Source: Henckelia pumila
Taxonomy: Eukaryota > Streptophyta > Magnoliopsida > Lamiales > Gesneriaceae
NCBI RefSeq assembly: GCF_033568475.1
Contig: NW_027331831.1
Coordinates: forward strand, 3,472,001-3,536,000
Direction of reading: 5' to 3'
DNA: 64,000 bases
The translations under genes were made by a program, and so were the position numbers. Position 1 is the first letter of the stretch, and each line of letters begins with the position of its first letter. Below, one piece after another: positions 21,693 to 56,222 of the stretch. The notes under the pieces were generated by a model. That model had not been told where the DNA came from. It ran no database searches and saw nothing but the letters and a program-made list of their open reading frames with translations.

Positions 21693-21816
21693 GGTACGGT
21701 TGAGCAGCTTTTACGAAATACTTTTAAATTTTTATTTTATAAAATTTTAAAATTTTGTGAAATTTTGTGAATAAAAAGATTAAAAGTATTTTTTAGAAGT
21801 TTTCTCAAACACTATC
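21693..21816. mobile_element. Tourist-like MITE (124 bp)
   Basis: Foldback sequence with ends GGTACGGTTGAGCAGCTTTT and (inward from the right) GATAGTGTTTGAGAAAACTT, flanked by TTA on both sides. It is related at its ends to the MITE in the MIR166 loop. Confidence 0.65.
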
Positions 21817-28725: not shown

Positions 28726-28868
28726 AATGTACTGGTGGGAAAAGAATGTAACAATGTAATTTTTATATTGTAAAACATATTATATTTTGCATGTATTGTT
28801 TTATTCTGCAATTAAATTGTAACATATTATAATTTGCATGTATCTTTCTTAATTGATTTTATTGCATA

Positions 28869-31800
28869 TTGTTTTTGAAGATCATTATGGAAAATGCTAT
28901 GATCAAAGATGGAAATAATGCACTGGAAGTTTGCATACCAGATAGTGGTACAACGCACACTATCCTCAGAAATGAAAAATATTTCTTGGAATTAAAACCA
29001 ACAAAAACAATGGTGAATACAATATCATGTCCTGTAGACTTGATTGAAGGATGTGGCAAAGCACAATTTTTGTTACCTAATGGTACAAAATTTTTTATAA
29101 ATAGTGCTTTATATTCACCACGATCACAAAGAAATTTGTTGAGTTTTAATGATATATATTCTCATGGTTATGATACGGAAACAATAACCGAAGGAAATGA
29201 GAAATATATGTGTCTTACTACATATAAATCAGGAAAGAAATATGTAGTTGAGAAATTATCAATGCTCCCTACTGGATTGCATTATACACATATAAGTCCA
29301 ATCGAATCAAATATGGTTATTGGAAATTCTTCAATACTAACAAATTGGCATGATCGATTGGGACATCCTGGTTCAATAATGATGCGAAGGATTATAGAAA
29401 ATACAAGTGGTCATCCACTGAAAGACCAGAAGATCTTTCAGAATAATAAGTTTCAGTGTAAAGCATGTTCTCTGGGGAAACTTATTATAAGACCATCACC
29501 AGCTAAAATCCAAAAGGAATCACCCATATTTCTTGAACGTATTCAAGGTGATATTTGTGGGCCAATTCATCCACCATGTGGACCATTTCGATACTTTATG
29601 GTATTGATCGATGCCTCTAGCAGATGGTCACATGTATGTTTATTGTCCACTCGAAATGTGGCATTTGCAAAATTGATGGCTCAAATAATAAAATTGCGGA
29701 ATCAATTTCCCGAATATACGATCAAGAAAATAAGACTTGATAATGCTGGAGAATTTACTTCCCAGACTTTTAACGACTATTGTATGTCGATGGGAATTAC
29801 TGTTGAACATCCTGTAGCTCATGTTCATACACAAAATGGATTAGCTGAATCATTGATTAAACGTCTGCAGTTGATTGCTAGACCAATGATTATGAGAACG
29901 AAACTCCCTATTTCTATATGGGGACATGCAATTTTACATGCTACTGCATTGATTCGCATCAGGCCAAGTGCATATCATAAACACTCCCCATTGCAGCTTG
30001 TATTTGGCAAAGAACCAGATATTTCTCATTTGAGAATTTTTGGATGTATGGTGTATGTGCCTATTGCACCACCTCAAAGAACAAAAATGAGACCTCAAAG
30101 AAAGAATGGTATTTATATCGGCTATGATAGTCCATCAATCATTAGATATCTTGAGGCTCAGACAGGCGATGTGTTTACAGCACGGTTTGCTGATTGTCAT
30201 TTTGATGAAAATAACTTCCCAATGTTAGGGGGAGAAAAGAAACACATCGAAAAAGAAATCACATGGTATGTACCATCATTATTACATTTGGATCTTAGAA
30301 CTAAACAATGTGATAAAGATGTACAGCAAATTGTGCATTTGCAAAGAATAGCAAATCAAATGCCAGATGCATTTGCAGACACAAAAGGGGTAACAAAATC
30401 ATATATACCTGCTGTAAATGCCCCTGCTCGAGTTGAAATTCCAAAGAAACAAAATGAATACATTCATGATGTCATAAAACGCCTGAAGCGTGGAAGGCCA
30501 ATCGGTTCAAAGGATAAAAATCCTCGGAAAAGAAAATACATAGAGAAAAATGATGATCAGAAAATAGAAAATGGTGTTCCAGAAGAAACACACGATGATG
30601 AAAATATTTTGTCAGAACCACAAACTGACGAGAATCATGAAATCTCTATCAATTATATTAATACTGGAAAAATATGGAACCGAAAGAATGTACAAGATAT
30701 TGATGAGATATTTTCGTACAATGTGGCATGTGACATCGTAAATGAAGATAATGAACCAAAATCTTTTGGTGAATGCAAAACTCGAAAGGATTGGTCAAAA
30801 TGGAAAGATGCCATCCAGGTTGAATTAAATTCGCTAAATAAACGTAGTGTTTTTGGACCTATAGTCCTTACACCTAAAGGTGTTAAACCTGTTGGGTACA
30901 AATGGATTTTTATTCGAAAGAAAAATGAGAAAAATGAAATAGTGAGATATAAAGCTCGACTTGTTGCACAAGGTTTTTCTCAAAGACCTGGAATTGATTA
31001 TGAAGAAACATATTCTCCTGTTATGGATGCAATTACGTTTCGGTATTTGATCAGTTTAGCAGTGTCTGAAAACTTGGACATGCGTCTAATGGATGTTGTT
31101 ACAGCTTATTTATACGGATCACTTGATAGTGATATATACATGAAAATCCCTGAAGGATTTAAGATGCTAGAAGCACAAAGTTCAGAACCCAGAGAATTTT
31201 ATTCTGTGAAATTACAAAGATCATTGTATGGGTTAAAGCAATCCGGCCGAATGTGGTATAATCGGCTAAGTGAACACTTGATGAAAAAGGGATATGTAAA
31301 TGATCCAATATGCCCTTGTGTTTTCATCAAGAAAACAACATCGGGATGCGTGATTATTGCTGTATATGTTGATGATTTAAACATCATTGGAACGAATAAA
31401 GAAATTCAAGAAGTGATGTTATACTTGAAGGAAGAATTTGAAATGAAAGACCTTGGAAAAACCAAGTATTGTCTTGGTTTACAAATTGAACAAAAAGAAT
31501 GTGGAATTTTTGTTCACCAGTCTAATTATACAGAGAAGGTCCTTAAACGTTTCAATATGGATCAATCAAATCCTTTAAGTACTCCAATGGTTGTCAGATC
31601 ATTGAATATAGAAAAGGATCCATTTCGTCCATGTGAAGATGATGAAATTGTTCTTGGTCCTGAAGTACCATATCTAAGTGCCATTGGTGCCCTTATGTAT
31701 CTTGCAAATTGCACTAGACCAGACATATCTTTTGCAGTAAATTTATTGGCAAGATTCAGTTCATGTCCAACGAAGAGGCACTGGAACGGAATTAAACATA

Positions 31801-32363
31801 TATTCCGTTATTTACGAGGAACGACGGATTTGGGACTTTTGTATCCAAAAGATACAAATCAGAGAATAATTGGTTATGCTGATGCTGGATACTTATCTGA
31901 TCCACATAAGGCACGTTCCCAAACCGGATATGTATTTACTCGTGGAGGCACTGCAATCTCTTGGCGATCACAGAAACAAACACTTGTTACAACTTCATCA
32001 AATCATGCCGAGATTATTGCACTACATGAAGCAAGCCGTGAATGTGTCTGGCTTAAATCAATGACTCGGCATATCCAAACTTCTTGCGGATTATCAGTGG
32101 ACAAGAATCCAATCACACTGTATGAAGATAATGCCGCATGTGTTGCCCAAATGAAAGAAGGATACATCAAAAGTGACAGAACTAAACATATTCCTCCTAA
32201 ATTCTTTGCATACACTCAAGAGCTGGAGAAGAATAAAGATATTGATATCTGTTACATTCAATCAAGTGAGAACTCATCCGATCTCTTCACAAAGGCACTT
32301 CCCACGGCGATATTCAGAAAACACATTTATAATATTGGGATGCGCAATCTACGAAATATGTGA
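28869..32363 (+). CDS. Copia pol region: protease, integrase, RT, RNase H (fossil)
   Basis: A long open frame of 1164 codons. Domains in order: aspartic protease (DSGTTHTIL, ~residue 26), GAG-pre-integrase zinc module (HDRLGHPG ... CKACSLGK, ~160-205), integrase core (GDICGP, DNAGEFTS ~290), reverse transcriptase (KARLVAQGFSQRPGIDYEET; YVDDLNII ~831) and RNase H (YADAGYLSD, EDNAACVAQ, SSDLFTKALP near the end). The order integrase before RT marks Ty1/copia. It acts only for the element itself. Confidence 0.95.
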   Translation: MFLKIIMENAMIKDGNNALEVCIPDSGTTHTILRNEKYFLELKPTKTMVNTISCPVDLIEGCGKAQFLLPNGTKFFINSALYSPRSQRNLLSFNDIYSHGYDTETITEGNEKYMCLTTYKSGKKYVVEKLSMLPTGLHYTHISPIESNMVIGNSSILTNWHDRLGHPGSIMMRRIIENTSGHPLKDQKIFQNNKFQCKACSLGKLIIRPSPAKIQKESPIFLERIQGDICGPIHPPCGPFRYFMVLIDASSRWSHVCLLSTRNVAFAKLMAQIIKLRNQFPEYTIKKIRLDNAGEFTSQTFNDYCMSMGITVEHPVAHVHTQNGLAESLIKRLQLIARPMIMRTKLPISIWGHAILHATALIRIRPSAYHKHSPLQLVFGKEPDISHLRIFGCMVYVPIAPPQRTKMRPQRKNGIYIGYDSPSIIRYLEAQTGDVFTARFADCHFDENNFPMLGGEKKHIEKEITWYVPSLLHLDLRTKQCDKDVQQIVHLQRIANQMPDAFADTKGVTKSYIPAVNAPARVEIPKKQNEYIHDVIKRLKRGRPIGSKDKNPRKRKYIEKNDDQKIENGVPEETHDDENILSEPQTDENHEISINYINTGKIWNRKNVQDIDEIFSYNVACDIVNEDNEPKSFGECKTRKDWSKWKDAIQVELNSLNKRSVFGPIVLTPKGVKPVGYKWIFIRKKNEKNEIVRYKARLVAQGFSQRPGIDYEETYSPVMDAITFRYLISLAVSENLDMRLMDVVTAYLYGSLDSDIYMKIPEGFKMLEAQSSEPREFYSVKLQRSLYGLKQSGRMWYNRLSEHLMKKGYVNDPICPCVFIKKTTSGCVIIAVYVDDLNIIGTNKEIQEVMLYLKEEFEMKDLGKTKYCLGLQIEQKECGIFVHQSNYTEKVLKRFNMDQSNPLSTPMVVRSLNIEKDPFRPCEDDEIVLGPEVPYLSAIGALMYLANCTRPDISFAVNLLARFSSCPTKRHWNGIKHIFRYLRGTTDLGLLYPKDTNQRIIGYADAGYLSDPHKARSQTGYVFTRGGTAISWRSQKQTLVTTSSNHAEIIALHEASRECVWLKSMTRHIQTSCGLSVDKNPITLYEDNAACVAQMKEGYIKSDRTKHIPPKFFAYTQELEKNKDIDICYIQSSENSSDLFTKALPTAIFRKHIYNIGMRNLRNM

Positions 32364-41250: not shown

Positions 41251-41260
41251 ATTTAAAAAC

Positions 41261-41580
41261 GAGAAAATGTTTTTTTGGTCCAATAAGTTGTTTATTTTTT
41301 GGTTTTGGTTCATTAACTTTTCAAATTTTGGTTTTGATACACTAACTTTTAATTTTCAGTGATTTTGATTCAATTGTTGATGTGACAGTTAGACACATCA
41401 GCATTTTTCGGTGTCACATCATCATTTTCCGATGTCATGTCAGCATTTTTCGGTGCCACTTCAACAATCGGACCAAAATACCCGAAAACCAAAAGTTAAT
41501 ATACCAAAACAAAAATTTGAACAGTTAATGGACCAAAATTAAAAAATAGACGAGTTAATGATCCATAAAAAATATTTTCC
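41261..41580. mobile_element. Mutator-like foldback MITE (320 bp)
   Basis: Ends GAGAAAATGTTTTTTTGGTC and, inward from the right, GGAAAATATTTTTTATGGAT, with recurring TTTTGGTYCATTAACT motifs in both arms and a GTGACA/TGTCAG-rich centre. The 10-bp target duplication ATTTAAAAAC is perfect (41251-41260 and 41581-41590). Confidence 0.9.
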
Positions 41581-42129
41581 ATTTAAAAACCATATATTTC
41601 TATTTTAACCGAAAATATTTTGAGTAGAAAAATGATATAAGTTAGGTTACAAAAACTATCTCAATCAAGAGAATATACGTGCTAGGTATATACACAAATA
41701 AGTGGCTAGAGCAACTTATTTGCCATCAACAACTTGAAATAGCATCCAAGCTAGAAATAAAAGTCGTAACAGTCATGTATAAATTAAATCAACTGTTTCA
41801 AGTCTTCCAAAAGACGCTGAATTAGGAAGAAGAACACATGTTAATTATTTGCCCATATATATATAGACAAACACAAATATTCGAAATAAAAAGAAAACTG
41901 TGGCGTGGGGAGATATATGGGATTTGTGGATCTTATTATAAGATGTAGGTCATGTTTGTTGCCTCGCTTTTATGACTTTGTTTGTCCTTTTTAATAAACC
42001 CCCCCTTATTTATCATCTCCCTTTCCCCCACTCACACACAATATCCCCTCTTCAATAATTCTTTAGTTTTTTTTTCCCCCACCATTATTAATTTACCTCT
42101 CAAACCCTAATCTTTGTTTCATAGAAAAG

Positions 42130-42410
42130 AAAGAATATGGGGGGCTCTTGAGGGGAATGTTGTCTGGCTCGAGGCCGTTCGAAAGATCGATACCATTTCT
42201 TGCTATTTATTTATTTAAGTAGTGTTTGGGAGAACTTCTTAGAAGCAATTCTTAGTTTTTCGTTAACAAAAATTTGAAATTTTGTTAACGAAAAGCTGAG
42301 AAGTGCTTCCTAAAATCTCTCTCAAACACTATCTTAGTCGACGAAAAATCGGAGACGTGGTTAATGACCTCGGACCAGGCTTCATTCCCCCCAATGATCT
42401 CTTGCTTCCC
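42130..42410 (+). ncRNA. MIR166: MIR166 precursor hairpin
   Basis: The mature miR166 sequence (21 nt, starts TCGGACCAGGCTTC, ends ATTCCCC) is present exactly at 42370-42390 on the 3' arm. A typical star strand (GGAATGTTGTCTGGCTCGAG, then G) lies at 42154-42174 on the 5' arm. The arms pair over and beyond the duplex. miR166 guides cleavage of class III HD-ZIP mRNAs (PHB, PHV, REV, ATHB8/15) and so sets leaf polarity, vascular and meristem patterning. A CT-rich stretch with TATTTATCATCTCC near 42005-42060 fits the promoter/start region of the primary transcript, which probably continues to ~43260. Of the 195 nt between star and mature strands, 116 are a MITE. Confidence 0.95.
42218..42333. mobile_element. 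Tourist-like MITE inside the MIR166 loop (116 bp)
   Basis: Ends AGTAGTGTTTGGGAG and, inward from the right, GATAGTGTTTGAGAG; TTA duplicated on both sides (42215-42217 and 42334-42336). The centre folds perfectly: CGTTAACAAAA, a 7-nt spacer TTTGAAA, then TTTTGTTAACG. Removing it leaves a normal-sized loop of about 79 nt. Confidence 0.85.
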
Positions 42411-44329
42411 ATTTGTTCGTGATTTTTTTGAGTCTAATATAGTAAATTGGATCTGTTCGAGGATCCGATGATATATATTGTTATTGAGATGATAGATTTA
42501 ATTAACTTTGGCCTTTTTTTTTATTATTGATTCAGGTGAAGTTATATATAAGGTGGTTGGGTTGCATGTGAGAGCTTGAAGATTGGTGTAATGATTAAAT
42601 TGTTTGACTTTGTGCTTTTTTTTTTCCTGTCAGTTGAAATTTAAACTCTGAACTGAAAGTCATCATCAAGTACCAAGTTTGATTTATTCATCATTACCTC
42701 GCATTAGATCTATCATTACATATATATGCTCATGATGATGATAGATTCAAGAATCTGCTCATGAACTTGTTCCTTTCTTTTCTCTTTTGGCCGCTGCTTT
42801 TATTTCCCTTTTCAGCCAACTCGATCTGATACACACAAACAAATTTTTTTTGAAATTAAAGAAACTTTTTGTTTTTGATTTTTTTTTTTTTACCGCACAT
42901 ATATTTATTTAGTCAACATTAATTCCCGATCCCTTTGTTTTGTCACTAGATTTTAATGTTTTATGTCGGGAAAAGAATGAGAATGAAGAATTTGTGAATC
43001 AATGTTGGCTTATATGACCATTTGCCAATAGGAGTCTATTTTCTTCTCCAATGTTTACCATATCGCTCGCTAGCACCCTCCGAACATAGGCCATTTATTA
43101 CTAATTTTCCGCAGTTGCACCAAAAAACCTTCGATGTTTATTAATGACTCCCATTGATATTCAGATTAATGGGTTAATTAATGGTGAGCTGCATTGACTA
43201 TTTCTCAATTAGCCGTGGGAGCAAGAAGCATTCGAGGGCATCGATCTTCTGTTTTTGGATTGCAGGTAAATATAACATAACAAATTAATTGCTTGTATGA
43301 TTAATTTTTTTTTAATGAATTTAATCTTGGTCATTATTCTAACACTACTAGTATTCATTAATAATACAACCATTAGTACGAAGGTCGGGAGAGTAAATAA
43401 TTTAGAATATATATGCGTATAGTCACGTCTCTTGCTAGCTGTGACTATATAATGACAATCTAATATTCAAGTTTGACAGGACATGCACCCTCAAAAAAAT
43501 AATGCTGTATATTATATATCTTGTGTTATTTATTAAATTCCAATCATTAAATTCAATTTTAGGATTGTTTAAAGAGATATATATATATAATTCATGTTAT
43601 ACATGTTTCCAAGCTTATCTATGATTTCCAATAACGTTACTGTACGTATGATATAAATACACTGCCAGATGGTATAGATGACATATATTTGATCTAGAAT
43701 TAATGAATTGAAGCTCAAATTATAATAATAATTGTCAGCTAGCTGGCAAGGTATTCAAAAACTTGACTGATTGACAAGATGATCTGACACGTGAATACTT
43801 GTGTTGTAGTCATGTAGCTTCAAATCAAATAACTGGTCACCAAATCTGGTAACGTTAATATACATATTATCCTAGCTGTTATTCAAATTTTCCTCTTCAT
43901 TTTTTTAAAAGAGTTTTCCAGTACTTGAACTGTGACGAAAATTGCATGAAATTACTACTGTTTTTTATGGTGTCTGGAGAATGGTAAAGTAAATGAATTC
44001 CCCGTATACATATATATATTTGTAAAATGGGGGGAGTTATGCCAGTAATTTGTAGTTAGATATGTTTCCGAACAACATTGAGTCGAGGAAAATCGCGTGC
44101 AACTCTTGCGGCGCCATGTTAATTTTAAGCAGCACATGTTGATCGTTTTCCTAGCTGGGCTAGAGTAGAATCACACACAACGAATGTTCTAAAATGCGCT
44201 AGCTAAGCGGTTGTCAACCGTTTCGATTCTTAGACATTTATGCTTCTTGGCGATATTAATTACATTATTGGTCGCCTAATTGAAGTTTAGCCAGCTCAAA
44301 ATCCTCATATAGGCGGCCGTGATCTAGAT

Positions 44330-50591: not shown

Positions 50592-53500
50592 TCAACCACT
50601 CGCATTCTTCCATATCTCCTCCAGCTCCCTCGCAAAAGTCTTCTGCCTCCCGACGACTATGGTAATATGATCTTTGTTTTCGACAACTTTAACGTGCGAT
50701 CGCGGGATCCTGGATTTCACGTTGTAACTGCATTCGACTGGGATCAGCTCGTCGTCTTCGCCGTGATATATGTTGATGTCGCATTTGAGCGTATTCTTAA
50801 CCTCGTCCAAGTATCCTTCCATCTTCGCCGCCGCGCCACAGATTATGTTGTGTAGCGTAAGCCACGCCGCGGTGTGTGTGTGACAGAAAAATCCCTCGAT
50901 CAAGTATGTTCTGATCCTGGATCGATACATTATATATATTTTCAACACTCGTGTGAGAAAATGTTCACGATCACTTTTTTTTTTAGTATTTACAAACATT
51001 ACTCGTGACATGATATAAATATATCATTACGTCACGTGCTACATTATTTTTCTAACCTTTTCTTAATTATTAATTTTTTTTTCTTTTTTTCAAATAACAG
51101 AGAACTCTATTCCAACTGTCCCAATTAAAATTATTACTTGGTCCCGGAACCCGACATTAAAATTCTCGAGAAATAAAAATGTGACACTTGTTTTAGTTCA
51201 TAACATATTTTTGGCATTACATGATATCACATTTTTTTCTTTTATGTTCAAATGAAATGCAATTCCCAAACTATACGTGTAGCTTAGGTTACACTCGCTC
51301 CCCACTTGTCATAAATTAATTTGGTGATTAATATTGTTTATTAGCCACATATTATTTGGAATCACTTTTCAATTTGTGGCTTAAATAAATCAAGATTTAT
51401 TACTATTTCAAAAGATCTAAAATGGAAGAAAGTAACAATTCACGAGTTCAGGTTCAGTTGGTGGGGTATTTATTTTTGTGTGGACCGTGGAAAAATTGGA
51501 GTCATTTACTCCATTACCATACAAGTTTATTCTAAAATTCCGAAATAAATTTACGACCTTACTTTCTATATTGGGCCATGAGTTGTCTCGTAAAATATTT
51601 TAAAACAATTAAAGCTAATATTAAAAAATAATAATTAATTATCTAAAAAAATTCGTGGATGCAGATAAATGTAGGAGCTAGTATTATATATGGAGATTGA
51701 ATTTCATGACGAGAGATGTGACCTCATACCAATTATTTTGTATATTGATTATGCATATTAAACAGTTTAATTTACCTATTACAACATGGAATGCCAAGAA
51801 ACTAATGATCCCTATATTTTTGTAGGAGTTAATGCATTACTTAAATAGATATTTTTTCTCCGATATTGAATTGAATTGTTAGGATGAATTCACGCACCAT
51901 ATTAAAACTATTCGCGCTCCAAGAATTAAAATTTTCCATAAAAATGAGAAAATTATGGATGACATACGCACGTGATACATTTATTATCCTTCGGAGTCTT
52001 AAAAATTTAATGTAATGAAAATTAGTAGAGTTTGGGAATATAATTATTTAGAGCTTTTTTATATAAAATAATATATAATAGCAAAATATAGAGTTAAAAA
52101 TGCGTGAATTAAAAGTAGTGCACTAACTTTAAGAGCATGGCACGTGATACTCACGGTAATAATGTGCGCGTGGGAAAGTTAGCTGTACAATACCTGTTCC
52201 GGGTGATCAATTTAGTGAGGAAATCCCAGAGACGGTGGTTTCTGGCCAGGAGAATACAGACGGTGCGGCTGAGGTGCTCGTACCAGCAAGCGACCGACGC
52301 GCCAAATGATATGAGTGGCCACACGCGCCGTGGGGCCACTTTCCTCATGGTGTACTGTGCTGGCTGCTCTCCCTTTGGAGCTGGAAAATATGGCTGCCAA
52401 TATATATATATATATTTTTTCAACCAATTTGCAAAACATAAATATCAACAGGAAAATGATGGACGGATGCCATTTAATGAAATAATAACGAAACTACATG
52501 CAATTAATGACGAAATCCGTGGTAGCCCTATGTTATTGCCCCTTATATCCAAATACAATTTAGTGGGCTTCTATACATCATCTAAATAATAATAATAATA
52601 ATAATAATAAGCCACCCATTTTTCTTCTTGTGTAATATAAGATTTATTCTGGCGTAAAAGAGCATTGATGCTAAATAAATAATATCTGATTGATTCATTA
52701 ATCTCAAACGAAAATAGGACTCACAAAAAAATCCAAATTAGTGGACGAAAACCAAAATTAGACTATTCACAATATTATAAAAAAAAAATGCAAATTTGGT
52801 CATGTGTGACACTTTGCGATTTTGGTCATTTATGTTTTCATATTTCAATTTTAATCATGTATGTTTCGATTTTTGACAATTTCGGTTATTTTTATTCGAA
52901 AATGCTTACGTGGCACTGTACACGTCAGCTTCACATCAGCACTGAATTGATGCCACGTCAGCACGACGTCGGAAAAAGGACTAAAATTGGCAAAAAAAAA
53001 AATAAAGATAGCAGACTAAAATTGAAATTTAAAAATATAAAAAACTAAAATCGCAAAGTGGCAAACATACATGGCCAAAAAAACAATTTTTCCTATTATA
53101 AATTCCAAATGAGATCAACTCAAGAGAGTAAAATTGTATTTTCCCCTCATCAGTTGGAAAATCGAAACATAACATTGGACATATTTTAAAATGTATTTAT
53201 GAAGCTCTCCATATTTAAAATCACACTCTTAATAAAAAAAATCAAACCCGCAAATATAAACCCAAAGATAGAATTCTTAATTTCAACGGGAATTCAAAAT
53301 CCTAGCTAGATAGATGAACCCTCTTCAAGCATCCAACGCCCCTAGAGTTCTTGACAGCCACTAAGTCATAAATAAGCTATCTGCCCATCGTGCAAGAATT
53401 AATTTTAAGCTCTTATTACGTTCAAATCACGTTAGCATTACGGATACATTAAATTTTTTTTTTAAAAAAATAAAAAGATCATTATATAAATATTAGGTCT

Positions 53501-54478
53501 AGTTAATTAATTACCGGAGCAAGCAACGTCAATGACTTGACGGAGGCGGGATGCTTGACAGCAAGTGCAAGAGCCAAAATGCAACCCAAAGAATGTGCCA
53601 CGATGTGGAAAGATTTCACATTGTATGGTTCAAGAACAGATCTTTCGATCATCTCCAAATGTTCCCTCAGAGTGTACAAAGAATCATTCGGTTTCGGGCT
53701 CCTCCCGAAACCAAGCAAATCCACTGCAAGTAATCTGTACTTTGATTTCGTATCCTTTGAGAAGTTTGGGTACAATGTTTCCGTCCAAAACGCTGATGAT
53801 GATATGAATCCATGTATGAACAACACATTTTCTTGCACGTTTTCTGGGTTTTTTTGTTACCATGAACAAAAGGGACAGATTATTAAAAAAAATTTGAAAC
53901 ATCGTTTGCAGAAGAAATTAATCAAAGAGTAGTTTTATAAAGGGCATTACGTACATACCTTTGGGTTCATCAACTTTTACATAGAGTGTGTTTTTACTAG
54001 AAGTCATCCAAGAAGTGCAAGTCTTGCAATCGCAATCGGACCACCTTGGAATAGGGAACGGCTGCTTCGGACCATTGACGACTCTCTCTTGCAGCATTCG
54101 GACACTGGTCGGGTTAACCGTGTACGCGGCCCCGGCTCGTCTGTTGGGCTTTTTCGAGGGATGTACGATGCTAGACTTGGATATGTGGGACATCAACGAG
54201 GGGCGTGTGTAGAGGGTGTCGGAGATTTCTTCGAGTTGAAGTTTGTTCCAATAATTAGTTAAATGAAGTGTATTTCTCGACTCCCTTTGCTCCGATACTA
54301 AGATCTTGCCACTGTAAGATGTGATGGCTTCTTTCGCTGGCAAGCAGTAACAAGGCTTGAATTCTGCTTCCATGAAGAAATCAGCCATTTTGTACACGTA
54401 ACACATCACGAAATCTAAGAGGTCTAGCAGAGTGAACACTAGAAAACTCAATATTTCGTTCAAGAATCTGCCTGACAT
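50592..54478 (-). CDS. BDG: BODYGUARD-like alpha/beta hydrolase, 457 aa
   Basis: Four exons on the minus strand: 54478-53959, 53843-53515, 52393-52194, 50916-50592 (1374 nt, in frame). I chose the start MSGRFLNEILSF because it matches family length; an upstream in-frame Met at 54514 would add 12 residues. An N-terminal hydrophobic segment (residues ~8-25) is followed by EAEFKPCYC, DTLYTRPSL, PRWSDCDCKTCTSW, then the hydrolase domain: ENVLFIHGFISSSAFWTET (179-197), DLLGFGRSPKPNDSLY, nucleophile elbow AHSLG (Ser258), acid in GEDDELIPVE (D404/D405) and His433 in KDHITIVVG. All three catalytic residues are present. Arabidopsis BODYGUARD proteins are outer epidermal wall proteins needed for cuticle and cutin formation; the biochemical substrate is unsettled. 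Introns 2 and 3 exceed 1.1 kb, and intron 2 carries a foldback element. Confidence 0.95.
52585..52610. repeat. AAT trinucleotide microsatellite in BDG intron 2
   Basis: About eight uninterrupted AAT units. Confidence 0.9.
52783..53093. mobile_element. Mutator-like foldback MITE in BDG intron 2 (311 bp)
   Basis: The arms share CACTTTGCGATTTTGGTC-type blocks in inverted order; the right end read inward is GGAAAAATTGTTTTTTTGGC. The centre is rich in ACGTCAGC and its complement. Flanks TATTATAAAA (52773-52782) and TATTATAAAT (53094-53103) are a 10-bp duplication with one mismatch. It is built like the elements at 20128-21418 and 41261-41580. Confidence 0.85.
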
Positions 54479-56222
54479 TGTCAAAAAAGATTTGATTTTG
54501 TCCTTGGTTCCCATTCTTTCACTCCACATACAACCGATCACTAAAAACAAGAACCACTGAGGACTCGATATATAGCGAGAAAGTGGAAGAAGCAAGATTA
54601 ACAAATATTGTTCATGGAGGAATAATTCTGGTGAAGGGTCTCATTGGGGTGTAATTCATATTCAAGGACTGATCCATATATGCCCTCAATAGTTCGAGTG
54701 GAAGATCAAGAAACAGAAGATGGGGTCTCGCAGCCTATTTTTGTCAAGAGACAAATTATAGGACAAGAAACCAACTCCAGATTTTGCACAATAGCTAACT
54801 TCTGTGTTATTTGGGGAAAAAAAATCTTGAAATTTTTTCGAGGGAGAGCTAGGAAATAAAATGCGAGCCGGAAGGGGTCTTTTTAGACGCGTACACTAAG
54901 GTAAGAGAAAGTAAATGAATTCTCTTTGTTACATTAAACTCGGTTTGCTGGGAAGGGGAGAAAGGTTGGTGGTAGTTGAAATATTAGTAACAGCAAACAA
55001 GCTACGTGAATTTATATATCCTCCCCATTTTCAAAGCATTGCTAATTCTGTTTACATATATAGTACTGGTGTATCATAGTGTTTGTGAAGATGGAATTTT
55101 ACACTTCTTTTTTGTGAAGAACATATATATGATTTTGTTTGTGTTGATAATTAATTTTATATCCGTCACCTAGAAGCTATCATTATGTGATTTTATTGTG
55201 CTGCAACCACTTCTTTTAAGTCAAACAAGATAGATAAATAAAAGACATTAAAATGGATCGATCATTTCAATTCCCAACTTCGATACAAAAACTTTACTGC
55301 ATATTAAAAAGTGGTCATGCTATGCATAAGTACTAGAAGAGTATGTTTGAGGTCATAAATTTTATCAGCGGCTCTTAATTATATCACAATCAGTACGCGA
55401 AAACATATTTCACATGCTATATTTTAATTAGACAACTAACGCTTGTACTTTACTTGGGCATTCATGAGTACTGTAGTAATTCAATTCAAACATAAAAACG
55501 ATACGAAGAGTATATCATCAAGACCTTGATGCATATTTCAAAATTATATCCGGATAAGCTTAAATTTTATAATGTCATTGAAGTAACAATATAAATCGTC
55601 ATCAATGTTGAAGTTTTGCATATTTTTCTCGCATGAAAATACTAGCTAGATGTACAAGCTTATTAGGGATTTTACTATATCTCCTGACAAAATTATTTTA
55701 GTCATTGGATAATCGAGGGCCATAGCTTTCGAACATTAAAAATATCATGTAATTACGGATGCGTTATATTGATGAAATCATAAAAACAATCGTGTAGCAT
55801 TACTTCAAATTAAGGAATTGAATTGGTTGAGACAATCATGTAATTGGGAGATTTGTACTCTAAATTGTAACCAAACCATAATAAATATGAGTGCGAAGAA
55901 ATTCAAAGGCATGATGCCACCGGAACATCTTGCATTTATTTATTTTAGCGAATTGCAACCATCTCTGTTAAGCTGCCAATATTTCAAACGACTACCATCT
56001 TTAGCACATGCAAGAGTAGAAAATATCACACTTTAAATGGAGATTCATCTATATAAAATACTAAGAGTTTTGGCGCACTCGTTCCGTGTATTTATATATA
56101 AAAAAAATATCTTGTATAATTAATATAAAAAAACAAGGGTTTTATATTCTAAAAGATAATATATGTCTAAATAGTTGTATTAATTGGTTTAGATGGTTTT
56201 TATGATATGATAGGAAATATAC

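Follow-up and report, generated by a model that had tools for sequence, protein, structure and literature searches.

A Tourist-like MITE in the terminal loop of a MIR166 precursor of Henckelia pumila

A MIR166 locus of Henckelia pumila took up a nonautonomous Tourist-like MITE in the terminal loop of its precursor, with duplication of a TTA target. The locus lies in a 64,000-nucleotide stretch of DNA (hereafter, the window) on contig C77 of the 884.7-Mb genome that we searched. Our preferred reading, which we consider probable, is that the MITE entered one of at least 14 MIR166-like loci as a side branch, that DCL1 cuts the precursor base first, and that the miR166 output is roughly unchanged. 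The locus offers a natural experiment on how much a base-first precursor can change in its terminal loop without loss of its product, an open question in plant miRNA biogenesis that becomes directly testable here, since a MIR166 that is otherwise exact carries 116 bp of self-complementary sequence in its loop. It also illustrates one way in which loops become longer and more branched, and in which a transposon can settle in a MIRNA precursor without disrupting it. For the plant itself, its weight is probably small, this being one of at least 14 such loci.

The precursor (Table 1) scores above the gathering score of 60 that is the cut-off of the Rfam family, and in the cmscan alignment the MITE falls within a long unmodelled insertion, in the loop of the MIR166 model. 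Its length of 249 nt becomes 130 nt once the insert and one TTA are subtracted. As the first-pass annotation of this DNA had proposed, the mature miR166 is exact: it is the sole match in the window at up to three mismatches and was found in 0 of 100 shuffles. The star strand likewise lies exactly where that annotation had placed it, and the same 21 bases are present at two further MIR166 loci (L009 and L019); we take this sequence to be the usual miR166 star. In the predicted fold, position 42154 pairs with 42388 and 42174 with 42368, which gives the star/mature duplex 2-nt 3′ overhangs, the expected geometry. With the mature strand on the 3′ arm, a star with such overhangs on the opposite arm, and a covariance-model score above the cut-off, the locus has the features by which we assigned it to MIR166. 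When positions 42337-42760 were used to search the assembly for an allelic copy, only the query itself and a 40-base MIR166 match were found.

Table 1. Coordinates of the MIR166 precursor, its insert, and the neighboring gene in the window
Feature	Position	Strand	Basis or remark
MIR166 precursor, RF00075	42147..42395	+	cmscan 74.2 bits, E 6.3e-16; span includes the insert
miR166 star strand GGAATGTTGTCTGGCTCGAGG, 5′ arm	42154..42174	+	sequence at these coordinates
Target-site duplication TTA, left copy	42215..42217	+	40-copy alignment sets the element end
Tourist-like (PIF/Harbinger-type) MITE, 116 bp	42218..42333	+	genome-wide copies, ends, target duplications, own hairpin
Perfect core helix of the MITE hairpin, 15 bp	42257..42294	+	42257-42271 paired with 42280-42294
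Target-site duplication TTA, right copy	42334..42336	+	40-copy alignment
Mature miR166 TCGGACCAGGCTTCATTCCCC, 3′ arm	42370..42390	+	exact match
Alpha/beta-hydrolase gene, exon pieces	50592..54515	-	marks the neighborhood common with the C129 MIR166 paralog; collinear pieces

The insert, located between the star and mature arms, belongs to a dispersed family. A genome search placed it at no fewer than 40 sites including its own, with 83 to 100% identity (from 1795 first-look candidates); the E value was 6.2e-53 for the insert itself and 2.8e-37 for the next copy, and the best other copy is 91% identical over query bases 2-114. The family terminal repeat, GGTAGTGTTTGGGAGAGCTTC, of which the copy in the loop has A for the first base G, matched 365 + 363 (728) times in the genome at up to one mismatch, against 0 + 0 for the reversed control pattern; since each element has two ends, the 728 matches are not a copy number. 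Taken together, the 40 scored places and these 728 matches versus none in the control exclude chance for the MITE. The first-pass annotation had made its reading depend on related copies elsewhere in the genome, and the 39 others scored provide them.

These 39 copies, aligned with their flanks, were the best-scoring ones and thus form a sample biased toward the copy in the loop. They have common, discrete ends, the terminal repeat and its complement (a few copies are without one end), and the alignment sets the ends of our element at 42218 and 42333, as annotated earlier for a 116-bp Tourist-like MITE with TTA on both sides. Identical flanking triplets were found at 28 of the 39 other copies, or 29 of 40 when this one is counted (11 unmatched), whereas 2000 shuffles of the 40 flank pairs yielded 12.5 matches on average and 20 at most. 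The matched triplets are 17 TAA, 8 TTA, 2 AAA, 1 TTC, and 1 ATA, so that TAA or TTA accounts for 25 of the 29. Members of the PIF/Harbinger superfamily are recognized by short terminal repeats and a TWA target. Short and multicopy, with terminal inverted repeats that have discrete ends and a 3-bp TWA duplication, the insert fits, by its sequence features, a Tourist-like MITE of this superfamily. DDE_Tnp_4 (PF13359) transposase domains are common in the genome (at least 173 matches, with 150 of 748 candidates scored). Among the four such places examined over 7 kb for an autonomous partner, none had a pair of matching ends; one had two end matches on the same strand, with 3 mismatches of 14.

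Against the consensus of the 39 others, the copy in the loop has changes at 8 of the 116 positions compared (6.9%), which makes it the 18th least diverged of the 40. At substitution rates of 0.65-1.5e-8 changes per site per year, the corresponding Jukes-Cantor distance of 0.072 translates into about 5-11 million years, an estimate that should allow for a parent copy other than the consensus. Given this divergence, the MITE is probably not a very recent arrival, though both miRNA arms are exact.

The fold of positions 42130-42410 with and without the insert, a comparison put forward by the first-pass annotation, bears on how the two hairpins coexist. With the insert, the predicted energy is -119.7 kcal/mol (z -11.7), and the energies are nearly additive, at -58.3 kcal/mol for the insert-free sequence and -58.7 kcal/mol for the MITE, which by itself forms a hairpin of 44 bp. 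Each of the 50 pairs predicted for the insert-free sequence is also present with the insert, and the probability of the star:mature pairs is 0.986 in both. The extra pairs outside the MITE are solely 42216:42336 and 42217:42335, between the TTA copies, and 42218:42334. About 1% of MITE bases are expected to pair outside the MITE, and all 97 pairs are found again in the optimal fold of a 701-nt context (42000-42700).

Since its removal keeps all 50 other pairs, the MITE is an added branch in this prediction and not a stem extension. The earlier annotation was right that the element is palindromic (55-nt arms, 82% complementary, with a 2-nt spacer) and that it does not open the loop; its proposal that the MITE extends the miRNA stem has to be given up, the prediction instead giving the element a branch of its own at the terminal junction. 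The perfect core of 11 bp given there was also an understatement, the longest uninterrupted Watson-Crick helix being 15 bp. The predicted outcome is an intact miR166 duplex topped by a multibranched terminal region.

We also considered that the palindrome protects the miRNA duplex, and rejected it. With 200 dinucleotide-shuffled inserts, the star:mature pair probability was 0.985 on average and 0.939 at the minimum, the duplex being equally well formed; with each of the 40 family copies substituted at the site, it was 0.986. As the shuffled inserts performed equally, the robustness is a property of the miR166 duplex itself and does not require the palindrome. How efficiently DCL1 cuts is beyond what thermodynamic folding can tell, and the shuffled-insert control shows the method to be insensitive here. 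We infer from the model that what the palindrome may give the loop is a compact branch without a long unpaired stretch.

Could the MITE stem have been kept for a function of its own? It might serve as a separate source of small RNAs, coupling transcription of miR166 to siRNAs against the MITE family or genes that carry it, and the element is indeed a long hairpin within a MIR precursor, while MITE-derived small RNAs and MIR genes are documented in the available sections of PMC10004981. The stem itself speaks against such a role: its energy per base ranks 25th of the 40 copies (26th of 40 when corrected for divergence), and 76% of its bases pair, the third lowest value among the 40. With 6.9% divergence from the consensus and a stem kept no better than those of other copies, there is no sign of co-option, which we regard as extremely improbable; on the present evidence, and by the same energy ranks, we reject conservation of the stem for function.

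A broader reading is that the locus is a dual small-RNA gene. Base-first cuts would yield miR166 while the MITE branch would be diced into 21-24-nt siRNAs matching the many dispersed copies of the MITE, so that transcription of miR166 would be coupled to silencing of the MITE family and of genes carrying it, or siRNAs from those copies would in turn methylate and tune the locus. We deem this very unlikely. The odds that we attach to these alternatives need not sum to one, as the rivals are not all mutually exclusive.

In the course of events that we favor instead, the insert, once transcribed, would form a separate hairpin of about 44 bp that branches off at the terminal junction, with the miR166/miR166* duplex and the lower stem unchanged. 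DCL1 would most likely still cut from base to loop, mature miR166 would be produced at about its former rate, and the MITE branch would either be lost together with the loop or give rise to a few siRNAs through dicing. Both the cutting direction and the neutrality we infer by analogy: because the published examples of pri-miR166 are cut base first, the output of miR166 is expected to be largely kept. In pri-miR166g, the first cut occurs at the 3′ end of miR166, which for a miRNA of the 3′ arm is the base end (PMC4231765, as excerpted). In pri-miR166c, which has a multibranched terminal loop, cutting can take place both ways, and the base-to-loop direction seems more effective, according to the accessible text of PMC9893293. 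Like the pri-miRNAs with branched terminal loops described in 2013 (as cited in PMC9893293 and PMC4231765), the locus described here has a predicted multibranched terminal region over an intact miR166 duplex; it differs from them in that one branch is an identifiable transposon. A 15-17-bp segment beneath the duplex is said, in the portion available of PMC7577975, to direct base-first cutting. At the MITE-bearing locus, base-first cutting is assumed, since this segment is broken into paired runs of 2, 3, 2, and 7, separated in turn by a mismatch, a bulge, and a 6-nt bulge.

A lower dosage of miR166, or MITE siRNAs from the locus, is possible. The extra branch might recruit DCL1 or another Dicer on the loop side and cause abortive loop-to-base cuts, or siRNAs from sister copies might draw RNA-directed DNA methylation, weakening this copy of MIR166. 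The added branch and its 44-bp stem are now part of the predicted structure, multibranched terminal loops permit cutting in both directions (PMC9893293, in the text available), and the numerous sister copies could provide siRNAs in trans. All eight differences from the consensus lose a C or a G, and six of the eight are transitions from C to T or from G to A, as in methylated DNA, but such losses are also expected in any old element. An apple allele of MIR172p that carries a transposable element accompanies reduced miR172, as summarized in the available portion of PMC8766977. On the other side, the mature strand, the star, and the duplex geometry are intact despite the 6.9% divergence of the insert, so that the locus does not look abandoned. 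On balance, we consider a change in dosage unlikely, and a largely kept miR166 output remains our preferred reading.

Our RF00075 search returned at least 14 distinct MIR166-like loci in the genome, 12 of them above the cut-off, including the one described here; it scored 45 of its candidates, and further loci may exist. The exact mature miR166 is present at 8 of the 14, and the two loci below the cut-off have close variants of it. The MITE-bearing locus is a member of this family by its exact mature and star strands, its duplex geometry, and its above-cut-off score, and stands apart by a terminal loop lengthened by a transposon, its 249 nt contrasting with 93-140 nt for the 13 other precursors. 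Each of the 14 loci, with 1.5 kb on either side, was also searched with all 40 MITE copies at E values up to 1e-3, and a match inside a hairpin was obtained solely at 42147-42395, the MITE being absent from all 13 other hairpins found, the C129 paralog included. Two further candidates were set aside: L023 (C2:167642542-167642627), a match below the cut-off, is a long near-perfect hairpin repeat without the mature sequence, and L024 is the L019 place read on the other strand.

The paralog on contig C129 has a precursor of 126 nt and the same downstream alpha/beta-hydrolase gene, with order and orientation kept; its loop has diverged too far for an empty site to be defined to the base. In the window, Pfam Abhydrolase_1 matches 53512-53844 (E 2.4e-25). 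The hydrolase exon piece has four matches in the genome, itself included. The best two adjoin the MIR166 loci of the window and of C129 (the latter match at C129:713365-713697, with 87% identity), and neither of the remaining two is near any MIR166 place found. The window also encodes an OPT transporter, a MYG1-like piece, and a protein-kinase piece. In Arabidopsis, MIR166e adjoins a BODYGUARD-like hydrolase gene, and MYG1-like and WNK genes lie in the same neighborhood. Given this neighborhood and the pieces in the window, the MITE-bearing locus may occupy the MIR166e position.

The conserved surroundings also bear on whether the locus is a decaying MIR166 pseudogene, in which the insertion would be without consequence because the gene is not expressed. 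Thirteen other MIR166-like loci provide redundancy, and exact arms alone cannot demonstrate transcription; but the arms are exact, the duplex is intact, the Rfam score lies above the cut-off despite the insert, and the hydrolase neighborhood is kept on the paralogous contig. We hold this explanation to be quite unlikely and maintain that the locus probably still yields miR166 at about its former rate.

The MIR166 precursor and the Tourist-like MITE are each of known kinds. The element is a typical Tourist-like MITE (PIF/Harbinger) in its shortness, its terminal inverted repeats, its TTA/TAA duplications, and its many copies; in itself it shows no difference from this class, and what is unusual is its position in a MIR166 loop. 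Long MIR166 precursors have been described, such as soybean pre-miR166z with 244 nt (PMC5286673, in the part available). The nearest precedent seen is the apple MIR172p transposon allele (Yao et al. 2015, cited in PMC8766977), which is associated with reduced expression and large fruit, as the accessible text relates. It resembles the present case in having a transposable element at a conserved MIRNA gene and differs in its miRNA family, the position of the insert in the hairpin not being given in the available portion of PMC8766977. MIR genes derived from MITEs are also reminiscent of the present arrangement, having a MITE hairpin within a small-RNA precursor; in those described in the sections available of PMC10004981, the MITE supplies the miRNA, whereas the MITE described here splits the loop of a miRNA that is older and conserved. 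Our searches of the open-license literature, including the accessible parts of PMC2773440, PMC10004981, PMC3558349, and PMC11706861, brought up no case of a MITE within the terminal loop of a conserved MIR gene; as an argument for absence, this is weak.

Copies of the same MITE family also occur in the vicinity of other MIR166 loci. A copy lies within 1.5 kb at 3 of the 14 MIR166-like loci (E up to 1e-6). Full-length members are present less than 1 kb downstream of the L010 and L015 hairpins (at 1958-2088 and 2240-2363, respectively, with the MIR166 strand taken as +), outside the hairpins, and short, weak matches occur near L012 and L021, again outside the hairpins (E up to 1e-3). Such proximity possibly reflects merely a preference of the family for gene-rich DNA. 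Four copies or fragments of the family are contained in 40 kb of C129, and a second, more diverged copy is present in the window at 21700-21816.

Two MIR166 hairpins stand in tandem at C3:182684903-182685229, about 120 bp apart; similar MIR166 pairs have been reported in several plants (PMC2773440, in the part available). About 560 bp upstream of the MITE-bearing hairpin, an inverted repeat at 41252-41589, with 136-nt arms that are 76% complementary and 66 nt apart, may be another MITE-like element in the promoter region of this MIR166. Elsewhere in the window, a long open frame at 28857-32363 (RVT_2, integrase) belongs to a Copia-type retrotransposon.
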